This document shows, one piece after another, positions 1 to 19,909 of a DNA stretch of 22,383 nucleotides. Under the pieces are notes generated by a model. It saw nothing but the letters and a program-made list of their open reading frames with translations, was not told the origin of the DNA and searched no databases. Every line of letters begins with the position of its first letter. Position 1 is the first letter of the stretch. The position numbers were made by a program, and so were the translations under genes. This stretch comes from a virus, in IMG/VR virus record IMGVR_UViG_3300010153_003477, positions 1-22,383 of that record. The stretch is one strand, 5' to 3'.

Positions 1-179
1 ATAGGCATCGAGGCTGCGAAGCGGGGGACGGTGTGTGGGGCTGGAGCATGTGATACCGTCCCCGTCGTGCGCGAGCGCATGGTGCGGCAAGCGATAGCGT
101 ATAGCACCTTGCTCGTGAGCACCTGATCGTCCTCTACTGTCGTAGTAGAGGTAGGAGATCGGAACTAGGTCGCTATCTT

Positions 180-304
180 GCTCCTCAGTACCAGATGCTG
201 GTCCTGTGGATTCGTCGCAATTCAACAGCTAACACCGCTGACGCTCGACTACGAGTCCTTTGTTAGTTGTAGCTACGGCTACTGAAGCTTCGAGCTGAAG
301 GAGC
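180..304 (+). other. Multi-branch RNA domain closed by a 9-bp helix
   Basis: Bases 180-184 pair with 300-304 and 185-188 with 295-298, leaving one bulged A at 299. This long-range helix encloses hairpins 190-202, 225-270 (with an inner hairpin 244-247/252-255) and 269-282 with a UACG-type loop. Helices 225-270 and 269-282 share two bases, so their ends must compete or stack. A closing helix around several internal hairpins is the mark of a folded RNA rather than of scattered palindromes. Confidence 0.5.
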
Positions 305-453
305 CAGCGGGCGTAGCACGCCTTGCACACCATGATGTGTGCAATGTCTTAGCTACTAGTAGTAGTAGTTAGTACTACGCACGCACGCACGTAAGAGAGA
401 GCCAGATGTCTCTGTCTCCCTGTATCGTTGACACTCAACTACGTGCGTCCTAC

Positions 454-491
454 TGCTCTACACATCACTCACCACCAGTGAGTGTAGAGCA
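454..491 (+). other. Long hairpin of the structured RNA
   Basis: An outer stem of 9 bp (454-462 with 483-491) is followed by a five-base bulge on the 5' side (463-467). An inner 5-bp stem (468-472 with 478-482) has a CACCA loop. It starts five bases after the helix 385-393/440-448 ends, so the two could stack. Confidence 0.55.
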
Positions 492-494
492 CAT

Positions 495-544
495 ACTTAG
501 GCTGCTTTGTTCACAACACGTTGTGGTTACAAAGCTACCTAAGT
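495..544 (+). other. Three-tier hairpin of the structured RNA
   Basis: Three stems are stacked in one arm: 495-501 with 538-544 (7 bp), 505-510 with 529-534 (6 bp), and 512-516 with 521-525 (5 bp) closing a CACG loop. They are separated by small internal loops. It begins three bases after the previous hairpin ends. Confidence 0.55.
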
Positions 545-546
545 AG

Positions 547-582
547 AGGAGTCCCTCGGTCTTGTTAGACCGGGGTACTCCT
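547..582 (+). other. 16-pair hairpin of the structured RNA
   Basis: Bases 547-562 pair with 567-582 around a TGTT loop. There is one mismatch (553/576) and one G-U pair (556/573). It begins two bases after the preceding hairpin. No T-tract follows directly, so it is not a standard intrinsic terminator. Confidence 0.55.
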
Positions 583-591
583 TACCGGAAT

Positions 592-631
592 AGGATCTAG
601 GATAAGAATACCATCCTCGCCAGTATTTTTT
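592..631 (+). terminator. Weak candidate terminator of the RNA region
   Basis: A weak stem (592-596 with 613-617) is followed after eight bases by six Ts at 626-631. The stem is short and the loop long, so this is only a possible 3' end for the structured RNA. I see no better terminator between the RNA and the terminase gene. Confidence 0.25.
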
Positions 632-645
632 AAAACCATAAGTAC

Positions 646-696
646 TTGACATGTGTATATACTGTGGAGTCACACCCCTGTAGGGGAACAGTATAT
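646..696 (+). promoter_or_regulatory. Inverted repeat with promoter-like words
   Basis: A TTGACA word (646-651) lies near a TATACT word (658-663), but the gap of six bases does not suit a standard sigma-70 promoter. Bases 657-665 are the exact reverse complement of 688-696, and inside them 675-679 pairs with 682-686, giving a two-tier hairpin or cruciform. This could be an operator over a promoter or an RNA hairpin in the leader of the 30-codon gene that follows. Confidence 0.35.
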
Positions 697-708
697 TAGG
701 AGTATAGG

Positions 709-801
709 GTGTCGGATCAGATCAAGAGCGTTACGTTGCCTCCGGCGTTGATACAGGCGATCAATGCAAGTCTTCGGGGCAAGCCTGTTCCAAAGAGCTA
801 A
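709..801 (+). CDS. Hypothetical 30-residue leader protein
   Basis: A short frame starts at GTG 709 and stops at TAA 799-801. An AGGAG ribosome binding site at 698-702, six bases before the start, is better than the site of the terminase gene that follows. The product would be small and basic at its end, beginning MSDQIKSVTLPP and ending GKPVPKS, with no recognisable domain. It is too short to be a small terminase subunit. The terminase start lies 18 bases after its stop and lacks a clear ribosome binding site, so translation of this frame could couple to terminase translation. Support is the ribosome site and position only. Confidence 0.4.
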   Translation: MSDQIKSVTLPPALIQAINASLRGKPVPKS

Positions 802-819
802 TCGTGTACTATTGCTTTT

Positions 820-5537: not shown

Positions 5538-8500
5538 ATGACGATGCCTCGTGATCTTTCTCTTAGAGAATTTGCCAGACGTAACCCTCAGCTATCCCCG
5601 CTGCAAGCCCAAAATGCCTTTGCAGAAAGAAGAATAGCTGACCCGTCAGAGCAACAGCCGCCTATGTCTAATAGGGAGTTCGGGGGGTTTGGTGTAGCTG
5701 AGGGTAGAGATAGAACAATCTTCGACCCTTTAATTGACCCCCGCCCAGTAGAAGCGTGGGGGCGTTCTGCCCCGGGGATTATCGGAGACGTAGCTGGTCC
5801 AACTCTTGGCGCAGCAGCGCATTTAACTTCACCATTCGATATATTTCTTACGCTAGCCAGTGCTGGAATTCTTCCCGGTGCATCAGGAGCTTTGAGATCA
5901 ATACCTTATGCAGGACGAGTTTTAGGTCCGGTTACTGAACGGCTTGCACCTACTTTCACTAAAGCATTAGGAGCTGAGACGGCAGCTGGTGTTGGGGGAG
6001 TCCTTGGTGCTCAAGAGGTAATAGAGCACACAGAAAATCTTCCGGGTCCGGCAAGAATTCCCTTGACTATTGGCGGAGGTTTACTTGGCGCAGCAGCAAC
6101 GCTGGCAACCCCTTCTCTTGCAAGAGGCACTTACAGGGGCGGTAAGATTCTTACCGATATCCAAAAGATGGAGAATGCTATTGACGATGTTATACAGGCT
6201 CGTCGATCAGCAGAAGACCCAAGCTTTAACGGAACAGTAGACCCGGGCGGAAGTTACGGCAAGACGGTAGAAACCGAAGGCAGAATTGTTCCTGACGTAG
6301 AGCCAGAGGCTCCTAAAGCTCCCTCAGCTTTACCTGCGACAGAGAAGATATATCACGGTACACGAGCTACAGATACTTCTACGTTCATAAACAAGAACGG
6401 AGACTTGGTTCTCAAGCAGTCTGAGAACTACGACGGTAGGCAGAAAGGCGTCTCCTTTACAGACGACCTAGAGTCTGCCCGTGAATATGCAACGCGCTCT
6501 ACTACTTATGACGACAAGTCCTTAGCTGCCATCAGACAGTACGACGGTACTGTATTCGAGATAGACAAGGACGCAGCAGGAGACCTTCTTCCTGAGGCGA
6601 TGAACGAACTGTTCGCTGACGGTCGAGATGTAGTCATTCCTAAGGGTAAGTTCAAAGCGTTAGATACAAAGGGTCTTGCTCCTACTCGGGACGATCTAAT
6701 AAAAGAGATGGAAAGCTCTTACCCGATTGGCGAGGGTCTACACAAGAAGTTCTCAGAGAGGTTCTTAAACGAGAAAGCCGACGAGCTTGACGCTATTCCT
6801 AACAAAACTCAGCAGGAAGAAGACCTTGCAGAAGAGATTTCTTCCACTCTGGGTCAGTATGAGGAAACAGGACTTGATGGATTCGACGAAGCTGATTTCG
6901 CTGAATATCCTCTGCGCTATGATGACACGTACAAGTACACCAGCCTAGCCCGTGAAGCTCCCGCTAGGGCGGCTGCTGCTAAGGAAACTGCAGTGCCTCC
7001 CGAGCAAATCCTTGCAGAGAACACTGAGAAGTTCCTCGACGAATCTCTTAACCGCAAGAAAGTTCTTCGTGACGAGAACATTGCAGATATAAAAGACCCG
7101 ATAGACCGTGCTATTAATAGGCAGGTAGAAGAAGCTCGTGTTCGAGAAGTTCTTAACTCTGGGGTAGTGGACGGTCCCGTTTCTAATATTGTCGGTCCTG
7201 CCGGGCATGAAGCGCGCAGATTGCGAGCTACTTTTGACTCTAGCGATGACCCACGCATACGCTCCCTTGCTCCTATCTTCGGTAAGTTCTTCCGAACAAT
7301 AAACGCATCAGATGCTAGGCGTCTTCGGGATGCTTTAGATAAGTACCCTCTTTCACACAGGCAAGAAGAGGTGGTTCAAAGGATACTGAAAGCTACTGGT
7401 TTCGACCAGAGTGTTCGGGTTGCCCGAGTAGACTCGGCAGCCAGCGCAGATTCCTTTAGCGATGCAGAGCTTATATCGTTTGTAAGGCACGAAGGTCGAG
7501 AGCTGACTATTCGAGAAGCAGCAGAGCTTACCCAAAAGGGAACTCATAACTTCCAAGTCTTTGCAGATGATGGCAGCCCTATGGCAAACGTCACAATGAC
7601 GAAAAGCAAAGGCGCTACTAGTACTGGTAAGCCTCTTTTTGAGATGAGCGGTCGTGGCTACCAGCTAAACCCTGACAAGTTAGGGAAAATTGGCAGGAAC
7701 GAATATGAAATTCTTATCGAGGCTTTGTCTCCTGCTGGGGAAGTTTTAAGTTTATCCGCAAAGGATAGAGTTAATAAGCAGTCTCGACGACAGATCATGG
7801 AAGTAGCAGACGAAATCTTCCGACAGACAGATGCTGACGTGCTAAGAGGAGAGCGTGTAACCGGCTCTAAAAAAGGTAGAGGGGCTTCTCAAAGTATCAA
7901 TCGGAAGCAAGTCGACCGATATTTCAACCGGTCTGTTATCACAGGCGATGAAGCAGAGCGTGTTCAGGATGCAATAAACAACTGGAACCGCCCGAGTTCA
8001 ACTGATGACGCTATCATCGCACAGATGGAAAACGACAAGCTCGCTCGTAGGATTATTGACGGAGAAAGTCTAGAAGATTTAATGGGAGGAGACCCCCCTC
8101 CCGGTACTTTTACAGGCTGGGACCCTAGCGACCCAACCCCTAGAGCTAGAGCCTCAGAGAACGCTATGTCAGACGCCACGGAAATTAACACGTGGGAACC
8201 GATAGGGCAGGATGCTCAAAGGTTATTTGCAGCTGCTCGTACTTACGAGTCTGCGGCTATTTCAGCAGGCGTAAGAGCAGGGGAGAAATTTGCTAAGGCT
8301 CGTGGGATAAAGACATGGAATGAAGAGAATGCCTTGCCACTGTTTCGTGCATTGCACGATCCTGACAAGCACTTAAACACTTTGTCTCCTGAGATGCAGG
8401 AAATCTACTACGACCTGAAGCGCAACTGGGTTTACAAAGAAGAGAACGATATGTTTACGTTCCTTTCATATGGTGCCGCAAAGAACGCTGCCCAGTTCAA

Positions 8501-11976: not shown

Positions 11977-12885
11977 GTGGCATCACAAAATGCAACAACT
12001 GGTAATCTCGCTAATGTGCAGAACACCATCATCAATGCAGCTCGTACTGTGCAGGAGTACAACACTCCTTCATGGCAGCTCATCGACAAGGTAACTCTGC
12101 CCAAAGGCGCTTCCACAGTCCGTGTTCCTAAAGTCGGTCAGTTCACTATTAGTGAGTTGGTAGATGGTCAGGACATGGTCGACGAGCAGGCAATCGGTCT
12201 GACGTCTATTGATCTTACGACCTCTGAAAAGGGTGCGAAGATTATTGTTACTGACAAGCTCGTTCGACAGAACGGCACTACTGACATCTTCGCGATTGTC
12301 GGTCGTCAGTTCGGTGAAGCTGGAGCACGTAAACAAGACCGTGACGTTCAAGCACTGTATTCAGGTTTGAATGGCGGTACCGCTTACGGTGCATCAGCTG
12401 CAACTCTTTCGCTTGCTAACTTTGCAGGAGCTATTGCAGCTTCTAGAGGTGGCGGACGAACAAGTTCAGGCGAGCTTCAGGGTGAACCTTTCAACCCTGA
12501 CTACGCAGTGGCTCACCCCCACTCCGCTTACAACGTGACTGCATCAGCAACCGCTATCGGTTCTGGTACAAGCATGAAAGTAAACGACCGCCGTGAAGAA
12601 GGACTCTTGAATAAATTCTTCAAGATCAGCTTCAACGGTGTAGATCTTTTCGAGTCCGGCAACATCGACATTGACTCCTCAGGAGACATGGTCGGTGTTA
12701 TCGCACAGCGAGACGCTCTCATCGGTATCACCAGCGTAGGCTGGACTACTGAACGAGAACGTGACGCTTCGGCTCGGGGTACTGAAATCAACTTCACGTC
12801 GGACTACGGCGTGTTTGAACAGGATGACAAGCACGGCGCTCCCCTTCTTTACGATGCGGGCGTTCCATCTACGTCAGCCTCCTAG
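11977..12885 (+). CDS. Major capsid protein
   Basis: This is the probable shell-forming coat protein. At 302 residues it fits an HK97-fold coat without a long N-terminal delta domain. Visible features are an N-terminal arm with TVQEYNTPSWQLIDKVTLPK, an RVPKVGQF strand, the segment GLTSIDLTTSEKGAKIIVTD typical of coat P-domain strands, a long helix with FGEAGARKQDRDVQALYSGL, and a later AQRDALIGIT strand. The place between scaffold and decoration genes fits. GTG 11977 has a GAGG ribosome site (11966-11969) seven bases ahead. Codon use looks well optimised, with many GAC/AAC/TTC codons, as expected for an abundant protein. It could belong to the N4-like, P22-like or HK97-like coat families; I cannot tell which. 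Confidence 0.85.
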   Translation: MASQNATTGNLANVQNTIINAARTVQEYNTPSWQLIDKVTLPKGASTVRVPKVGQFTISELVDGQDMVDEQAIGLTSIDLTTSEKGAKIIVTDKLVRQNGTTDIFAIVGRQFGEAGARKQDRDVQALYSGLNGGTAYGASAATLSLANFAGAIAASRGGGRTSSGELQGEPFNPDYAVAHPHSAYNVTASATAIGSGTSMKVNDRREEGLLNKFFKISFNGVDLFESGNIDIDSSGDMVGVIAQRDALIGITSVGWTTERERDASARGTEINFTSDYGVFEQDDKHGAPLLYDAGVPSTSAS

Positions 12886-13541: not shown

Positions 13542-14285
13542 ATGGCATTCTCTACGAGAATATACGCAGATTACGGAATGGAGAAGAAGACTGGTACTGA
13601 CAAGTACCATGCTCTCGGAACCATTCTCGAACTCCCAGACGGACGAGAGTTCAAGTACGCCAAAGCCGGAGGAGTTGCTTTAGCTCAAGGTAAAATTGTT
13701 GCAGCTGCAGCACCTACCGGACATCACGACATGGACCTTGTAACTGCTGCGGCTGCGGTAGGTTCATCGTCAATTACGGTAACGCTTGAAGGTACAGCAG
13801 CAGCTGAAGACCTTTATGCAGATGGATACATCTTTACCAATGATGACACTGGTGAGGGTCAGGTTTACCGAATTGCAGGACACGATGCTATTGACTCTTC
13901 TGGCTCAGGTGCTATCGACCTTGCCGAGAACGATAAGGTAGCTGTAGCCCTAACCAGTTCTACCCTTAGTGGTCTTGCTCCTAACCCTTATAACGGTGTT
14001 GTTGTTTCTCCAACAACAGTCGTAAACAGGACTGTAGGCGTTCCTGCAACTGCTATTGCAGCAAGTGCGTACGGATGGGTTCAGACTAAAGGTCTGGCAT
14101 CTGTTCTTGTTAGCGGTACAGTTGTATTAGGCGAACCAATTCGTGTTGCTGGTGCTACCACAGCCGGTGCTGTAATGGCGCTCGACCGTGATGGTTCTGG
14201 TGAAAACGAACAAGAAGTTGGCGTGGTTATGGGTGTTGTGTCAGTAACTACTGACTACGCACTTGTATTCCTAAACATCGACTAA
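13542..14285 (+). CDS. Probable head decoration protein
   Basis: The 247-residue product is almost all beta-strand-type sequence rich in Ala, Val, Gly and Thr, with short repeated-looking blocks (TAAAAVGSSSITVTLEGTAA; VVVSPTTVVNRTVGVPATAI) and no Cys. Such a profile next to the coat gene is typical of cement or decoration proteins that bind the capsid surface. The N-terminus RIYADYGMEKKTGTDKYHAL is more polar. The start at ATG 13542 follows an AGGA-type ribosome site; a 71-residue frame overlapping from 13468 is in another phase and is not favoured. It is the last gene before the strong terminator at 14293. It is also the nearest abundant surface protein to the sugar genes, and so a possible glycan target. 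Confidence 0.65.
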   Translation: MAFSTRIYADYGMEKKTGTDKYHALGTILELPDGREFKYAKAGGVALAQGKIVAAAAPTGHHDMDLVTAAAAVGSSSITVTLEGTAAAEDLYADGYIFTNDDTGEGQVYRIAGHDAIDSSGSGAIDLAENDKVAVALTSSTLSGLAPNPYNGVVVSPTTVVNRTVGVPATAIAASAYGWVQTKGLASVLVSGTVVLGEPIRVAGATTAGAVMALDRDGSGENEQEVGVVMGVVSVTTDYALVFLNID

Positions 14286-14292
14286 TAGGTAC

Positions 14293-14341
14293 GGGGCGTC
14301 CTTCGGGACGCCCCTATCTAAAAGAAGGGCTCTCTTTTTTT
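14293..14341 (+). terminator. Strong hairpin terminator after the head genes
   Basis: A perfect 9-bp GC-rich stem (14293-14301 with 14306-14314) closes a TTCG tetraloop. About 20 bases later seven Ts (14335-14341) follow a second, weaker stem of the AAAGA/TCTTT type. The C(UUCG)G loop fixes the + strand as the transcribed sense. The stem-to-T distance is long for the first hairpin, so the two hairpins may act as a tandem terminator or attenuator. Confidence 0.75.
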
Positions 14342-15047
14342 GACTTCAGATCCATCCCTCAGGATACTCGACGACCCTGAGAGATTACTTTACATACGTG
14401 CAAGTGGGGACTTCAGGGGCTATCGAGCTATACCTGTAGCTAAAGAACCGTGGACTTACGACTGGTTGAAAGACCTTTCTACAGGGGATGTCTTATACGA
14501 CATCGGGGCAAATGTCGGTAGCTATAGCCTGATGGCAGGAGCTAGAGGAGCGGCGGTGTATGCCTTCGAGCCTTTGCCTGTGAACTATGCCGAATTAATA
14601 GCGAACGTCCACCTCAACAGTCTTAGTGAAAAGATCTACTGCTACCCCATTGCAGCTACCAATAGCTATCTCACAAGCTGGATACCGTTCTCAGTGCATG
14701 ACATCAACCTGCCGGGATACGGGCTAGCGTCCGCAGAAAAGCAGTACAAGGGGTCAGAAGATGTCTACCTACCCTCTGCGGCTTTGGATGCCCTCCCTGC
14801 GACAGCGTTCAAGCCTCCAACCCATGTAAAGATCGACGTAGAAGGGGCTGAGTTCCATGTGCTCGATGGTATGCAAGGCATCCTTAGCGCAGGAAGTATC
14901 AAGTCCCTAGTAATAGAAATCGCTGACGACCGCACTGAAATACAAATCAAAAAGCTAATGGAAAGACATGGCTATTACGGAGAAGAAGCAGAAGATAGTC
15001 GCCGTTCAGGTGAGAACAGGACATTGATTTATGAACAGGAGTCTTAG
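14340..15047 (+). CDS. FkbM-family SAM methyltransferase
   Basis: The enzyme probably transfers a methyl group from S-adenosylmethionine, usually to a sugar hydroxyl in this family. Motif I DIGANVG is at residues 54-60, followed by FEPLPVNY at 76-83 and the family mark KIDVEGAE at 164-171, then EIADDR at 193-198. At 235 residues the length is normal. The only start that keeps the N-terminal region is TTG 14340, which overlaps the T-tract of the terminator; the next in-frame ATG would cut into the cofactor site. The ribosome site (AGAAGGG) is weak and about eleven bases away. The gene overlaps neuB by 17 bases, so methylation is likely linked to the nonulosonic acid product or its acceptor. 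The substrate is unknown. Confidence 0.85.
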   Translation: MTSDPSLRILDDPERLLYIRASGDFRGYRAIPVAKEPWTYDWLKDLSTGDVLYDIGANVGSYSLMAGARGAAVYAFEPLPVNYAELIANVHLNSLSEKIYCYPIAATNSYLTSWIPFSVHDINLPGYGLASAEKQYKGSEDVYLPSAALDALPATAFKPPTHVKIDVEGAEFHVLDGMQGILSAGSIKSLVIEIADDRTEIQIKKLMERHGYYGEEAEDSRRSGENRTLIYEQES

Positions 15048-16086
15048 CATTGACGGCACGCTTATTTCAGACGACCAGCCTGCGTACATCATCGCTGATA
15101 TCGGGCACAACCACGCTGGTGATATGACCCGCTTGGAAGCTATGGTCGATTCAGCAAAGGCTTCTGGGGTAAATGCAGTCAAGTTTCAAACACGTAACCC
15201 TAAGTCGCTGTATGCACCCGTTGAGTACTATCGTACTTCCGACAACATTCAGTGGATGGATGAGACCTATGGAATCCATCGAGAGAAACTAGAGTGGTCT
15301 CCCGAAGAGTGGAAGGATGTTTTCGATTACTGCCGGAACGCCGGGGTTACAGCTTTCTCTACTCCTTTTGACTTTCGCAGTTTAGATTTACTTATAGGGC
15401 TGGGAGTCCCGGCTATCAAGATTGCTAGCGGTGACGCAACAAACTTACCGCTTATTACAGCAGCAGCATCACATGGGCTTCCCCTAATAATCAGCACTGG
15501 CGGTGCTAACCAGAAAGAAGTAGATGAAATTGTTGAAACGATGGAGAAGACTACGGCTTCGTTCGCCCTTCTACAGTGCTCCTGTATCTACCCTGCCCCG
15601 CACGACGTGCTCAATCTCAGGGCAATTACAACGATTAGAGACAGATACCCCACCGCATGTATCGGGCTTTCCACTCACGACCCAGAAATACACCCAACCC
15701 TTGCCGCCTTCGCCCTCGGAGGAAGAATCTTTGAACACCACTACACCAACAATAGGAGGTGGAAGGGAACGGATAATGCCTTCAGTCTCACGCCGCCAAT
15801 GATGAAATTATTACGTAAGCAGGTAGATGACCTGTCTTCAGCTATGGGTACAGGCGAGAAGAAGCCTGACATTCGTGAGTTTAGTTACACTACCGAACGG
15901 CGTAAGTCTTTGTATTGGAGTAGAGATGTCGAAAGAGGAACCATTGTCACAGCTAAGGATATTTCGATTCAGTGCCCGGGAGGAGGCATTGCTCCCAAGC
16001 ACGCTGCGACCCTTGTGGGCAGAGTGGCAAGCCGCAACTGCAGAGCTGGTGAAGCCATTCAAATGGGGGAAATAGAGAATGGTTGA
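15031..16086 (+). CDS. neuB: N-acetylneuraminate synthase family protein
   Basis: It condenses phosphoenolpyruvate with N-acetylmannosamine or a related amino sugar to make a nonulosonic acid. The TIM-barrel domain shows IADIGHNHAGD (21-31), VKFQTRNP (50-57), STPFDFRSLDLL (110-121), KIASGDATNLPL (130-141), LLQCSCIYPAP (180-190), LSTHD with H216 and FEHHYT with H236/H237. The last two are the places of the metal-binding histidines in NeuB enzymes. Residues 290-350 form the C-terminal SAF (antifreeze-like) domain, including CPGGGIAPKH. The 351-residue length is standard. It starts inside the methyltransferase gene and overlaps neuA by eight bases. Legionaminic or pseudaminic acid synthases (LegI/PseI) belong to the same family, so the exact sugar is open. 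No 2-epimerase (neuC) is seen, so the host must supply the amino sugar. Confidence 0.92.
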   Translation: MNRSLSIDGTLISDDQPAYIIADIGHNHAGDMTRLEAMVDSAKASGVNAVKFQTRNPKSLYAPVEYYRTSDNIQWMDETYGIHREKLEWSPEEWKDVFDYCRNAGVTAFSTPFDFRSLDLLIGLGVPAIKIASGDATNLPLITAAASHGLPLIISTGGANQKEVDEIVETMEKTTASFALLQCSCIYPAPHDVLNLRAITTIRDRYPTACIGLSTHDPEIHPTLAAFALGGRIFEHHYTNNRRWKGTDNAFSLTPPMMKLLRKQVDDLSSAMGTGEKKPDIREFSYTTERRKSLYWSRDVERGTIVTAKDISIQCPGGGIAPKHAATLVGRVASRNCRAGEAIQMGEIENG

Positions 16087-16813
16087 TACCGTCGCATTCA
16101 TCCCTGCCAAGGGTAGTTCTCAGCGTATACCGGCTAAGAACACACGGTACTTAGGCAAGCATCCTTTAGTTGCTTACACAATTCAAACTGCTTTGCAGTC
16201 AGGCTCATTCACAGATGTGTATGTAGTTAGCGACAAAGAAGAAACACTGAAGATCGCTGAGCATTACGGTGCTAAGACTATAGGGGAGCCCGGGGTCTAT
16301 ACGACTGAACCGGACATTACATGGGTGAAGCACGCTCTTACAGATATCAAACGTCACGGGTTCAAACCTGAAGCATACTCAATCGTTAGATGCACATCAC
16401 CGTTCAAGACTGTGAAGGACATACGTGATGCTAAGAAGCTCTGGGATAAGGCTCACAAAGAAGGCTACAGCTCTCTCAGGGCTGTAGAGAAGTGCTCTCA
16501 GCATCCGACGAAGATGTGGAAGCGTCAGATTACAGGGGAGATTACGCCTGTTCTGTTGCAACCTGACGGGCAGAAGTGGCATGATTCTCCGTACCAAACC
16601 CTTCCAGAGGTTTACATACAGAACGCTTCAATAGAGATGGCGCGCTCCGACTTGGGGGACAGCATATCGGGGTCTCGTATATATGGGTATCTCAGTACAG
16701 GGTACTCAGGTTTCGATCTCAACTTCCAAGAAGATTGGGATATAGCAGAAGCTAAGATAGCTAGGAAAGAATTCAAGCTACCAAGGATGTCGGTTTCCCC
16801 ATGGCAGATTTAG
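16079..16813 (+). CDS. neuA: CMP-nonulosonic acid (sialic acid) synthetase
   Basis: It activates the nonulosonic acid with CTP to give a CMP-sugar and pyrophosphate. The nucleotide-binding loop FIPAKGSSQRIPAKNTRYLG lies at residues 7-26. VVSDKEE follows at 49-55, then RCTSPF at 104-109 in place of the more usual PTSP form, VYIQNASIEM at 178-187, and the metal-site segment FDLNFQEDWDIAEA at 212-225. The second metal position is Asn215 rather than Asp, a variation also common in related CMP-sugar synthetases. At 244 residues it matches the short cytidylyltransferase form without an added esterase domain. A GGGGGA ribosome site lies within the end of neuB. The eight-base overlap with neuB and thirteen-base overlap with the next gene mark one operon. 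Confidence 0.9.
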   Translation: MVDTVAFIPAKGSSQRIPAKNTRYLGKHPLVAYTIQTALQSGSFTDVYVVSDKEETLKIAEHYGAKTIGEPGVYTTEPDITWVKHALTDIKRHGFKPEAYSIVRCTSPFKTVKDIRDAKKLWDKAHKEGYSSLRAVEKCSQHPTKMWKRQITGEITPVLLQPDGQKWHDSPYQTLPEVYIQNASIEMARSDLGDSISGSRIYGYLSTGYSGFDLNFQEDWDIAEAKIARKEFKLPRMSVSPWQI

Positions 16814-17232
16814 TACTACCCGGACCTCAAGGCGCAGAAGATGCGACAACAAGTATTTGGACACCGACCGAAGTAAGGTATATCCAGTCTTGGGTTGTTG
16901 GTGAAGCTGAGGAAAGTAAAGTCCGCGCCATCAAGCACGAGTTCGTTTTGAACTATATGGGTGAGACGGAATACTTCGGTGTGCTTGCTGAAGAGGGTTG
17001 CTCTGAGGCACAGATTGAAGACATGGCTGCCGGTACTCTTGAGCGTGTGGCAGCAAATATTGTAGAAAAACGTCAGCGCACATCAGGGAAGAAAACCCCT
17101 GAGTACTACGCAAGCAAGGCAAATGTTTCTGAACGGCATGATCTTGCCGAAGCATTTAGAGATTTCAAGAAAGACTCAGCGAAGCGAAGGGCTTCCTCAA
17201 ACAATAGGATTTTTTATCCGGGGCTTAAGTAA
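16801..17232 (+). CDS. Unrecognised 143-residue protein
   Basis: I do not recognise a family. The protein is helical and charged: a loop-rich N-terminus, then IWTPTEVRYIQSWVVGEAEE at about 19-38, several amphipathic helices, and a very basic end (RDFKKDSAKRRASSNNR at about 119-135). It has one Cys and no membrane span or catalytic motif. It starts inside neuA (thirteen-base overlap) and its last base is the first base of the next gene, so it is expressed with the sugar cassette. Small basic helical proteins in late phage operons are often virion or DNA-binding proteins; a link with sugar chemistry is not shown. Confidence 0.55.
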   Translation: MADLVLPGPQGAEDATTSIWTPTEVRYIQSWVVGEAEESKVRAIKHEFVLNYMGETEYFGVLAEEGCSEAQIEDMAAGTLERVAANIVEKRQRTSGKKTPEYYASKANVSERHDLAEAFRDFKKDSAKRRASSNNRIFYPGLK

Positions 17233-18251
17233 TGGCAGTAAAGAAAAAGAAGGCTCGCAAAGAGGTTTGCATCCTTGGTTACGCAGAAGAAACACGAGAC
17301 CTAGTACACAATCTTCCTAGCAACGTGGAGATTTGGGGTATCAACATGGCTCATATGTTTACTAAGAAGGGGGCAAACCTTACACGATGGCTACAGATTC
17401 ACCCTCGGGACTGGGCATCTCAAGGTTCCCCTGCTACTGGGTACTGGGGTAGACCTAAGACGCATTTCGATTTTTTGAAATCTTTCAAGGGCGATGTTGT
17501 TATGTCCTACGAAGAGCCTGACATACCTAACTGCAAGGTCTTCCCTTTCGACAGGTTTGAAAAGGATTTTGGTTCTGACTACTACACAAGTTCGTTTGCC
17601 TATCTTGCTGCTATGGCTATCGACGAAGGCTACGACAAGATTTACTTCTACGGTGTGAACCTGACAGCTATGGACGAGTACATCCACCAGAAGGCAGGGC
17701 TTGAATACTTCATTGGCTATGCAAAAGCTAAGGGTATTGAAGTTGAAATCCCTGATGGCTCAGGTCTGCTTACCGCCCCTAACTATGGTGTTAGCACTAA
17801 GGAAGGGAAGCTTCAAGCTCACGTGTCTGAGCGCTTAGCTTCAGCGCGTGACAGCCTCGACGAGTCAGCGGTCAACATCAGTATCGCCCGTACCATGGGA
17901 CTCGACACGCAGCATTGGGATGAGTTCTTGGGGGAGATTATGCAGCTTACAGTCAACGAGATTCAGGAAATGCCCGGGGATTCTGTTAGCAAGGAAGTTC
18001 TTGGGAAGCTAGGTAAGAAGCTCAGAGATACAATCGCTGATCGAATTGAGCGGCGTAACCGTGTATTTACCAAAATGGAGTCTCAATCCCAACAGCATTA
18101 TCATGCCGCACAGGGCAGGGTAGGGGCTGAGCAGCATTACCTTTCGCTGCTGGGTGGTATAGACTATCGAGCAGGGGCTCCCTCAGAGGTATTCTTCCCG
18201 AACCCAATAATTGCCACGGACATTGACCCTCCAGAGCAACAGGCGGTGTAG
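17232..18251 (+). CDS. Rossmann-like protein, possible glycosyltransferase
   Basis: The 339-residue product begins with a basic KKKKARK stretch, then a Rossmann-type strand-loop VCILGYAEETRDLV at 12-25, VEIWGINMAH at 32-41 and LTRWLQIHPRDW at 50-61. The core YYTSSFAYLAAMAIDEGYDK at 117-136, followed by IYFYGVNL at 137-144, an EY pair at 149-150 and GLEYFIGYAKAKGIEVEIPD at 156-175, follows the same pattern as the DUF115/MptE-like fold and the GT42 sialyltransferases of Campylobacter (S-x-x-Y-x-x-A-x-A-x-x-x-G-Y-x-x-I-Y-x-x-G). Residues from about 195 on are helical and charged. Similar proteins occur in phages without sugar genes, so transfer of a CMP-sugar is only a hypothesis. A GGGG ribosome site precedes ATG 17232. 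Confidence 0.6.
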   Translation: MAVKKKKARKEVCILGYAEETRDLVHNLPSNVEIWGINMAHMFTKKGANLTRWLQIHPRDWASQGSPATGYWGRPKTHFDFLKSFKGDVVMSYEEPDIPNCKVFPFDRFEKDFGSDYYTSSFAYLAAMAIDEGYDKIYFYGVNLTAMDEYIHQKAGLEYFIGYAKAKGIEVEIPDGSGLLTAPNYGVSTKEGKLQAHVSERLASARDSLDESAVNISIARTMGLDTQHWDEFLGEIMQLTVNEIQEMPGDSVSKEVLGKLGKKLRDTIADRIERRNRVFTKMESQSQQHYHAAQGRVGAEQHYLSLLGGIDYRAGAPSEVFFPNPIIATDIDPPEQQAV

Positions 18252-18254
18252 GAA

Positions 18255-18632
18255 GTGCTCACATATAGAATTCGTTCGGACCAAGTTAGTCGGAAGTCTT
18301 GGGCTGTACCCTTTGGTGTAGCTGAAGGCAGTGACTTTAAATTAGCTGCGACCATGCTCAGTCATGGCGCGGTAGACAGTGTCAATTTCACTAGCAGTGG
18401 CACATGGACGGTTACGGTATCCGACTCCGTTCTAAACGGGGGCTCTGCCCTTCTCTCCGCCGAGACATCTGACTCATTTACCAAAAATACTGGGCTCGCT
18501 GAGTGGTCTATTACGGATACTCAGTCAGCTGGGTGGGCAGCTGGTACTTACAACGGTGACATCAAGGTTGTCGATTCTGGAGCGCTAGTTACTTACTTCC
18601 CAATATCACTCAAGGTTAGGGAGGCACAGTAA
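18255..18632 (+). CDS. Small beta-rich structural protein, 125 residues
   Basis: The sequence is beta-strand rich with Ser/Thr/Val patterns typical of an Ig-like fold (SGTWTVTVSDSVLN; AGTYNGDIKVVDSGALVTYF). The WAAGTYNGDIKVVDSGA stretch recalls small phage baseplate or appendage proteins whose last strands read like this, but no named family is claimed. GTG 18255 is chosen because it begins three bases after the previous stop and the frame has no better start. Its last base is the first base of the next gene. It is the first of a run of tail-type genes that continues to the window end. Confidence 0.6.
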   Translation: MLTYRIRSDQVSRKSWAVPFGVAEGSDFKLAATMLSHGAVDSVNFTSSGTWTVTVSDSVLNGGSALLSAETSDSFTKNTGLAEWSITDTQSAGWAAGTYNGDIKVVDSGALVTYFPISLKVREAQ

Positions 18633-19909
18633 TGGCTGCCAACCAAAGCAGAACACGGCGTAACATGCGCCAGTCCATCGGCACAGAGCTCAAGGCTATC
18701 GACATGGACGCTGGAACCATTCAGCGTTCTCCAACGGCTTCCTCGTCAACCGATAACCTTACTGTTCACGACGCTAGCATGGTCTTTGGTGGAATCAATG
18801 AGGCTCGTGGTAAGTGGGTAGTAGCTACCGATACTTCAAACCTCACAGAAATTAGAAGAATCTCAGGAAACCTACCAGATGCCGGGACTTTTACTGTAAG
18901 CACTCCGTTCTCCTCTGCCCCTAATACAGGCTGGGTTATGGAAATATGGAACTCAGAAGTCAACCCTGTTGCTATTCACCAGTACATAGACAACGCTGTG
19001 TCTGAGGCATCTCGTGTTGGGGCTGTGCGATTTGAGTCGGACTCCATGCACTACAGCGCTAAAGCTCAGAGCATTGGGCTTAGCGATTCTTTCGCTGGTG
19101 TTACAGGCGTAAGCTATCGTGCCAAAGTGACAGGCGAACAGCTTGTTTCTTTTGACGACGCCATGTCTACTCTCTCAGCAAACTCACACATTACAACTGA
19201 CTCAGAGAACTACATGGAGGGCATGGGTGCTGCAAAGATATCTATCTCGTCTTCCCAAGCAGCTGCTTCAGATATCGCTGGTTCTACTTTTTCAGCCGTT
19301 GACTTATCTTTTTACGACCAGCTAGAGATGTGGATAAGCACTAACGTAGCAACTGCGGACACTGCACAACTACGGCTGAAGCTGTACGAAGGTTCTTCAA
19401 TGAAGGAATCTATTGCACTTCCAGCTTTAGGAGCTGACAGCTATACGCACCTATCACTTTCCTTGGCTAACCCTGAAGTTGATACTGCTATCACAAGCGT
19501 AAGACTTAGCACAGGATCAAGCGGGGGCTCTAGTAAGTCTGTTCTTCTAGACGACCTTCGTGCAGTCAAGAAAAATACTGCTGTATGGGAGCGGCTTCAC
19601 CCGCGCCGATGGCGAGTATCTCAAACTGATAAGTCTTTGACCCTGTCTAATGCCCCGATGCCGTACGCAAAGCTACGAGTTCATGCAGTACGACTACCTA
19701 ACTTGCTGACAAGCGACACGCAGGAGTCAGACATCGACGCTGGGTACGTTATCAATTCTGCTATTGCCAAGCACCTACGCTCTACTGCTAGCAGGGCGGG
19801 CGATAACATTGACGCTGCCTTTGAGCAGTCCCTACGCTATGAAGCATTGGCACAGAGCCAGCGCGTTCGTATGCACGCTCCAAGCGCAGTGAAATGGATT
19901 GATGGATAA
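18632..19909 (+). CDS. Tail or appendage protein with beta-sandwich region
   Basis: The 425-residue product has an N-terminal part (30-110) with alternating strands and GWVMEIW, a linking region with HQYIDNAVSEASRVGAVRF, and at about 190-312 a stretch that reads like a carbohydrate-binding or jelly-roll beta-sandwich. That stretch contains DLSFYDQLEMWIST, then AQLRLKLYEGSS, TSVRLSTGSSGG and VLLDDLRAVKK. The C-terminal 100 residues are more charged and helical. A GGGAGG ribosome site lies eight bases before ATG 18632. The overlap of single bases on both sides ties it to its neighbours in one tail operon. A role in tail structure or surface binding is inferred from fold pattern and place. Confidence 0.6.
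   Translation: MAANQSRTRRNMRQSIGTELKAIDMDAGTIQRSPTASSSTDNLTVHDASMVFGGINEARGKWVVATDTSNLTEIRRISGNLPDAGTFTVSTPFSSAPNTGWVMEIWNSEVNPVAIHQYIDNAVSEASRVGAVRFESDSMHYSAKAQSIGLSDSFAGVTGVSYRAKVTGEQLVSFDDAMSTLSANSHITTDSENYMEGMGAAKISISSSQAAASDIAGSTFSAVDLSFYDQLEMWISTNVATADTAQLRLKLYEGSSMKESIALPALGADSYTHLSLSLANPEVDTAITSVRLSTGSSGGSSKSVLLDDLRAVKKNTAVWERLHPRRWRVSQTDKSLTLSNAPMPYAKLRVHAVRLPNLLTSDTQESDIDAGYVINSAIAKHLRSTASRAGDNIDAAFEQSLRYEALAQSQRVRMHAPSAVKWIDG

Follow-up and report, generated by a model that had tools for sequence, protein, structure and literature searches.

The sequence analysed here, hereafter the window, is a 22,383-base virus record (IMG/VR IMGVR_UViG_3300010153_003477) with a phage operon on one strand, and our subject is a putative cassette for nonulosonic acids (NulOs) within that operon. 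An earlier note on this DNA had described five open reading frames lying between head and tail genes; their coordinates are as described, Pfam matches assign the first three to the FkbM, NeuB and NeuA families, and neighbouring genes overlap by 17 nt (FkbM/NeuB), 8 nt (NeuB/NeuA), 13 nt (NeuA/u143) and 1 base (u143/339-aa gene). The five genes are as follows.

14340..15047, + strand: FkbM-family S-adenosylmethionine-dependent methyltransferase, 235 amino acids (aa), TTG start (PF05050, E 1.7e-13; TIGR01444 over its cut-off)
15031..16086, + strand: NeuB-family nonulosonic acid synthase with a SAF domain, 351 aa (PF03102, E 1.6e-65; PF08666)
16079..16813, + strand: NeuA-family cytidine monophosphate (CMP)-sugar synthetase, 244 aa (PF02348, E 1.9e-14)
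16801..17232, + strand: u143, a 143-aa core virion-operon gene, found in 41 of 41 relatives spanning the major capsid protein (MCP) to p425
17232..18251, + strand: 339-aa protein, proposed nonulosonic acid transferase, with an N-terminal GT42-like fold (approximately residues 9-182) and long C-terminal helices

The synthase belongs to the NeuB family by the curated cut-offs (221.4 versus 22.1 bits for PF03102; 30.1 versus 21 bits for SAF), and it aligns end to end with NeuB structures from Neisseria meningitidis (E 3e-41). N. meningitidis residues K53, Q55, T110, K129, S132, S154, Y186, H215, E234, H236 and D247, which contact phosphoenolpyruvate (PEP), metal and substrate in that enzyme, are all kept in the window protein and its relatives; in the window protein, Asp occupies the position of Glu25. 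Membership of the NeuA family follows likewise from the score for CTP_transf_3 (54.4 versus 22.6 bits). The best PDB matches of the NeuA protein are CMP-sialic acid synthetases (E 4.4e-14), and its best NCBIfam match is PseF, below the cut-off of that family. Residues K20, N21, R104 and D213 are kept, including the loop lysine and the first metal aspartate, with Lys in place of the loop arginine. Thus, both enzymes retain their catalytic residues, as the earlier note had claimed. Two further positions differ from the reference enzymes: the second metal aspartate of NeuA (D211) is Asn, as it is in 35 of 37 bacterial relatives, and the N-acetylmannosamine-binding Arg314 of N. meningitidis NeuB is Cys, the corresponding residue being Ser in 56 of 64 bacterial relatives. 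We considered and rejected the possibility that these changes mark decayed enzymes, because the Asn of NeuA is also found in bacterial relatives and most bacterial NeuB relatives carry Ser where Arg314 would be. We consider it highly probable that phage enzymes carry out both synthesis and activation of a NulO.

Which NulO is made cannot be named from family cut-offs. Arg314 is absent, and the NeuB protein misses the NCBIfam equivalog cut-offs for both NeuB_NnaB (256.6 versus 399.65 bits) and PseI (231.8 versus 340.25 bits), so the "sialic acid" of the earlier note is too specific, although the NulO-type NeuB/NeuA pair that it described stands. There is also no neuC in the cassette, such that the precursor must come from the host, as had been proposed. 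Like bacterial NulO operons (NeuB/NeuA; LegI/LegF; PseI/PseF), the cassette pairs a synthase with a CMP-transferase, each with its catalytic residues kept. Unlike them, it lacks precursor genes (NeuC, LegBCGH, PseBCGH), lies inside a virion operon, encodes a NeuB that falls below the NeuB_NnaB and PseI cut-offs, and includes a phage-specific transferase-like gene.

That last gene had been called Rossmann-like, a description that missed a GT42-like transferase fold. Searches with the single sequence against PDB, Pfam, PHROGs and NCBIfam returned nothing; only a family profile and a fold search gave matches. An AlphaFold model, for which a 26-member family alignment was the input, has a mean pLDDT of 81.8 and shows two long helices after a compact alpha/beta domain. 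When this model was compared to the PDB with Foldseek, CstII from Campylobacter jejuni took ranks 1-5 (probability 1.00, E 2e-3 to 1e-2) and a human sialyltransferase rank 7, and the best nine PDB matches to the family sequence profile, weak as they are (E 0.011-0.16), are all GT42 sialyltransferases. Hence, GT42 enzymes of the CstI/CstII type are the best match by both fold and profile. A 205-aa homologue at another locus (L022), encoded by a gene that overlaps the end of the NeuA gene, yields a model with a pTM of 0.81 for which the top 15 Foldseek matches are all GT42 (probability 1.00, E from 5.5e-5), thiamine pyrophosphokinases coming next (2.5e-3). Moreover, the N-Q-F-Y motif of CstII aligns with the conserved Asn of a W-G-x-N motif in the family, and two distant members (L016 and L044) keep a G-x-A-P-S loop. 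The window protein differs from CstI and CstII in its low identity to them (~12-17%) and in its extra C-terminal helical domain. Two loci carry the transferase-like gene twice: in L006 a second, divergent copy (30% identity; L006:8232-8972) lies upstream of FkbM, and L014 likewise has two copies.

The distribution of the 339-aa family follows that of NeuB. Fifty-eight loci of the capsid family span the slot occupied by the cassette; the 339-aa family is present in all nine of those with NeuB and in none of the 49 without, and FkbM is present in seven of the nine and none of the 49. More broadly, FkbM is found in 21 of 50 neuB-bearing viral loci, unrelated phages included. The pairing of NeuB with the 339-aa family recurs in a locus with an HK97-type portal, S78 protease and capsid (L046) and in one with a P22-type portal (L034), and no member of the family occurs in any of 80 cellular NeuB loci. 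We searched for NeuB in eight whole records that carry the 339-aa family and found matches in five, including all four records of at least 18 kb (the match in one of these, G080, is weak and partial only); the three records without NeuB are fragments of 4.0, 4.1 and 11.0 kb. We therefore rejected the apparent absence of neuB for some copies of the family: a NeuB is encoded at another place in the longer records, and the remaining ones are short fragments. In a tree of 101 NeuB rows, whose bootstrap is not fully settled, a clade with full support unites the window NeuB family with sequences that come only from Chloroflexota genomes; the remaining phage NeuBs are spread over several separate clades.

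We propose that the insert is a phage module for making and attaching a NulO, and that the acceptor, which is the weakest step of this reading, is most likely a virion protein or its glycan; we put the probability of the whole at about 0.5. Late in infection, NeuB would join a host-supplied six-carbon amino sugar and PEP to give a NulO, and NeuA would convert the NulO to CMP-NulO. FkbM probably O-methylates the sugar, its presumed target. The 339-aa protein, which is in our judgement probably a NulO transferase, would then move the NulO onto this acceptor. If, as its predicted fold suggests, the 339-aa protein is a transferase of the GT42 type, no host transferase would be needed.

Several observations weigh against this proposal. 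TM-scores to GT42 are only ~0.5, indicating remote similarity, and thiamine pyrophosphokinases share the fold. Pfam CST-I (PF06002) matched none of the 26 family members at E up to 1, and a search of the window for the CST-I family was empty, although its controls were silent too. Sequence comparison, as distinct from structural alignment, reveals no evident counterpart of the CstII lid segment or of its general base, His188. The loci counted for co-occurrence are related and not phylogenetically independent, such that a Fisher value overstates the significance, and location among virion genes is no proof that the acceptor is on the virion. With regard to His188, most members of the family have the signature E-Y-x-x-Q-[RK]-P-x-x-E-Y-[WF]-x-G; judging from the sequences, a near-invariant His57 together with the E-Y-x-x-Q-R-P-x-x-E-Y-W motif could act as substitutes.

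Some of the same observations would fit a phage that makes only CMP-NulO, which a transferase of the host would use, with the 339-aa protein being a nucleotide-binding enzyme of the thiamine pyrophosphokinase/MptE type that has another role. The fold is indeed common to thiamine pyrophosphokinases and SteA, one family member has an MptE-like match (E 0.35), a counterpart of CstII His188 is not evident, and two Chloroflexota carriers have NulO loci of their own. We nevertheless regard this explanation as unlikely, given that GT42 is the best match by profile and structure alike, that the 339-aa family is tied very closely to NeuB, and that overlap with NeuA occurs.

The proposed making-and-attaching module sits within a conserved virion operon, in the order terminase, portal-position protein, 1816-aa protein, scaffold-position protein, capsid, p188, p247, the five genes described above, p125, p425, p105 and p651; a match of the terminase large subunit to phrog_2 (E 1.3e-20), together with the capsid match below, shows the surroundings to be phage. 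The features that frame the cassette are as follows.

11977..12885, + strand: MCP (PF25209 phage capsid, E 2.9e-9), the query used for finding relatives
13542..14285, + strand: decoration-like protein p247, upstream of the insertion (weak match to phrog_29386 virion structural protein, E 0.0094)
14286..14341, + strand: terminator-like element (two hairpins and a T run) between p247 and FkbM (minimum free energy -29.8 kcal/mol, z -4.5)
18255..19909, + strand: p125 and p425, conserved genes downstream of the cassette, syntenic in relatives

The capsid-family scan found 449 relatives, from which 80 loci were kept. A survey of cassette conservation, as the earlier note had recommended, showed that in six independent contigs (L003-L008) the same overlapping order, FkbM-NeuB-NeuA-143 aa-339 aa, stands between the same head and tail flanks at 43-88% protein identity, and dN/dS is 0.05-0.15 for the cassette genes where measurable, indicating purifying selection. 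Hence, the cassette genes are maintained, and the arrangement is neither chance nor an assembly artefact. The 143-residue gene, which had been counted as part of the cassette, is a real gene but belongs to the core virion operon: it is present in all 41 loci from MCP to p425, and in neuB-negative relatives it directly follows p247, mostly within a few bases. We therefore reject u143 as a sugar gene, and conclude that the sugar genes were inserted between p247 and u143, with the 339-aa gene after u143. No match to u143 was found in Pfam, PHROGs or NCBIfam.

An insertion at a permissive junction could in principle be passing, non-adaptive cargo, and 49 of the 58 slot-spanning loci of the wider capsid family are indeed without the cassette. 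We consider this very improbable, because the gene order is kept across lineages at 43-88% protein identity, dN/dS is well below 1, and the cassette recurs in unrelated phages. Foreign origin is not apparent from GC content or codon usage, by which the cassette resembles the remaining phage genes.

The earlier note had left open whether the sugar would modify the virion or the host surface. Genomic context favours the virion, which we think the likelier acceptor by some way, with a host-surface acceptor possible but less probable. A module that remodels the host envelope, such that late NulO masks receptors and blocks readsorption of progeny or superinfection, would need an identical gene set, late expression would fit it, and a role in changing the composition of the cell surface has been proposed for phage sugar genes (PMC5332604). 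We nonetheless find it doubtful: the genes lie in virion operons of several phage groups, the transferase-like gene is beside portal and u143 in a Chloroflexota element described below, and we noticed no flippase, polymerase or lipid-carrier transferase among the window genes.

That element bears on the proposed virion acceptor. Homologues of window virion genes lie dispersed among cellular genes, in a shared order, in five Chloroflexota/Dehalococcoidia genomes (G004, G005, G041, G042 and G043; L233-L241, L248-L254 and L271-L272), where CinA adjoins the terminase. On a 161-kb contig of G005, terminase, capsid, portal, tail-type genes, FkbM, NeuB, NeuA, u143 and a 339-aa homologue are scattered among cellular genes; virion and cellular genes are interleaved in the same manner on a 253-kb contig of G042. 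The capsid is found in five of 76 genomes of the G005 family, G005 included, at 91-93% identity to the G005 capsid. Comparison of G005 with G042 gives dN/dS of 0.04-0.14 for the virion genes, whose divergence is similar to that of neighbouring cellular genes (dS near saturation). Gene transfer agents form particles that package host DNA at random, and are recognised by chromosomal virion genes that are under purifying selection and inherited with the host; here, five genomes have a common gene order with dN/dS of 0.02-0.14. In G041, u143, the 339-aa homologue and the portal lie together, and the transferase-like gene shares 80% identity with its G005 counterpart and has a low pN/pS. FkbM adjoins the capsid in G005, G041 and G043; NeuB is near the capsid only in G005, and was not found in G041 or G043, genomes that are possibly incomplete. 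In G042, FkbM-NeuB-NeuA-u143-339 aa forms a separate, more divergent island. Thus, in the scattered element the synthase is less well kept than the proposed transferase and methyltransferase. It may draw CMP-NulO from cellular pathways, since G005 and G042 have cellular loci of the NeuC, NeuD/LegC and PseBCGI types. From its sequence, the element is perhaps a domesticated, gene-transfer-agent-like particle system, and retention of the proposed transferase and FkbM beside virion genes in such a system favours virion modification. We tentatively suggest, as a picture that is rather unlikely to hold in full, that Chloroflexota phages coat their virions by means of a module for NulO synthesis, activation and transfer with a new GT42-like family, and that some hosts have domesticated such a phage into gene-transfer-agent-like, NulO-decorated particles.

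Few systems are known in which a phage glycosylates its virion. Mycobacteriophages encode glycosyltransferases that act on capsid and tail-tube proteins (Freeman et al. 2023, cited by PMC10877033 and PMC11256854); here, by contrast, the phage would also make and activate an acidic nine-carbon sugar. The archaeal virus HRPV-1 displays a NulO on a virion protein, as we propose for this phage, but the host makes the sugar and HRPV-1 encodes no NulO pathway of its own (PMC6137143). Viral neuB/neuA have also been recorded before: 126 neuB reads in eight viromes (PMC3877843), sugar genes in a marine phage genome (PMC5332604), and NeuB in the lysis cassette of DLP4 (PMC6469090). The available text of these three papers reports neither a transferase partner nor placement in a virion operon. 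Hence, neuB in viromes and virion glycosylation are each known, and their combination here appears to be new; in the literature that we searched, mostly without subscription journals, we found no report of a phage making, activating and attaching a NulO, nor of a gene transfer agent in Chloroflexota. Given a candidate transferase, the sugar genes can be read as a pathway open to testing, and the candidate itself offers a transferase family that is new. If virions bear charged sugars, their adsorption, their stability and their mimicry of the host could all be influenced. The scattered virion genes of Dehalococcoidia, being under selection, suggest that a gene transfer agent may exist in a phylum that is widespread and difficult to grow; among Chloroflexota, SAR202 strains have been brought into culture (PMC10444878).

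A stable hairpin at the junction of p247 and the cassette is also present in L003, L004, L006, L007, L066 and L067, and such hairpins may keep enzyme expression below that of the capsid genes. A promoter scan gave one match versus 5.1 expected, and so no support for a promoter, and an Rfam search gave no match. Within the 1816-aa protein, a YHGT...GVSFTDDLESAREYA stretch (window 6351-6500) resembles phage ADP-ribosyltransferase domains by eye, with no Pfam match. Ahead of the terminase gene (window 1-819), ~700 bases lack a long open reading frame and have short palindrome-like stretches by eye, with no tRNA or Rfam matches. Similar sugar genes were noticed elsewhere: a record of Moritella viscosa in the phage collection (FPLJ01000048.1) has an annotated sialic acid synthase and CMP-sialic acid synthetase, and another phage group (L052-L061) has NeuA-like and NeuB genes beside structural genes, their neighbours in L058 including glycosyltransferase-like and methyltransferase-like genes.

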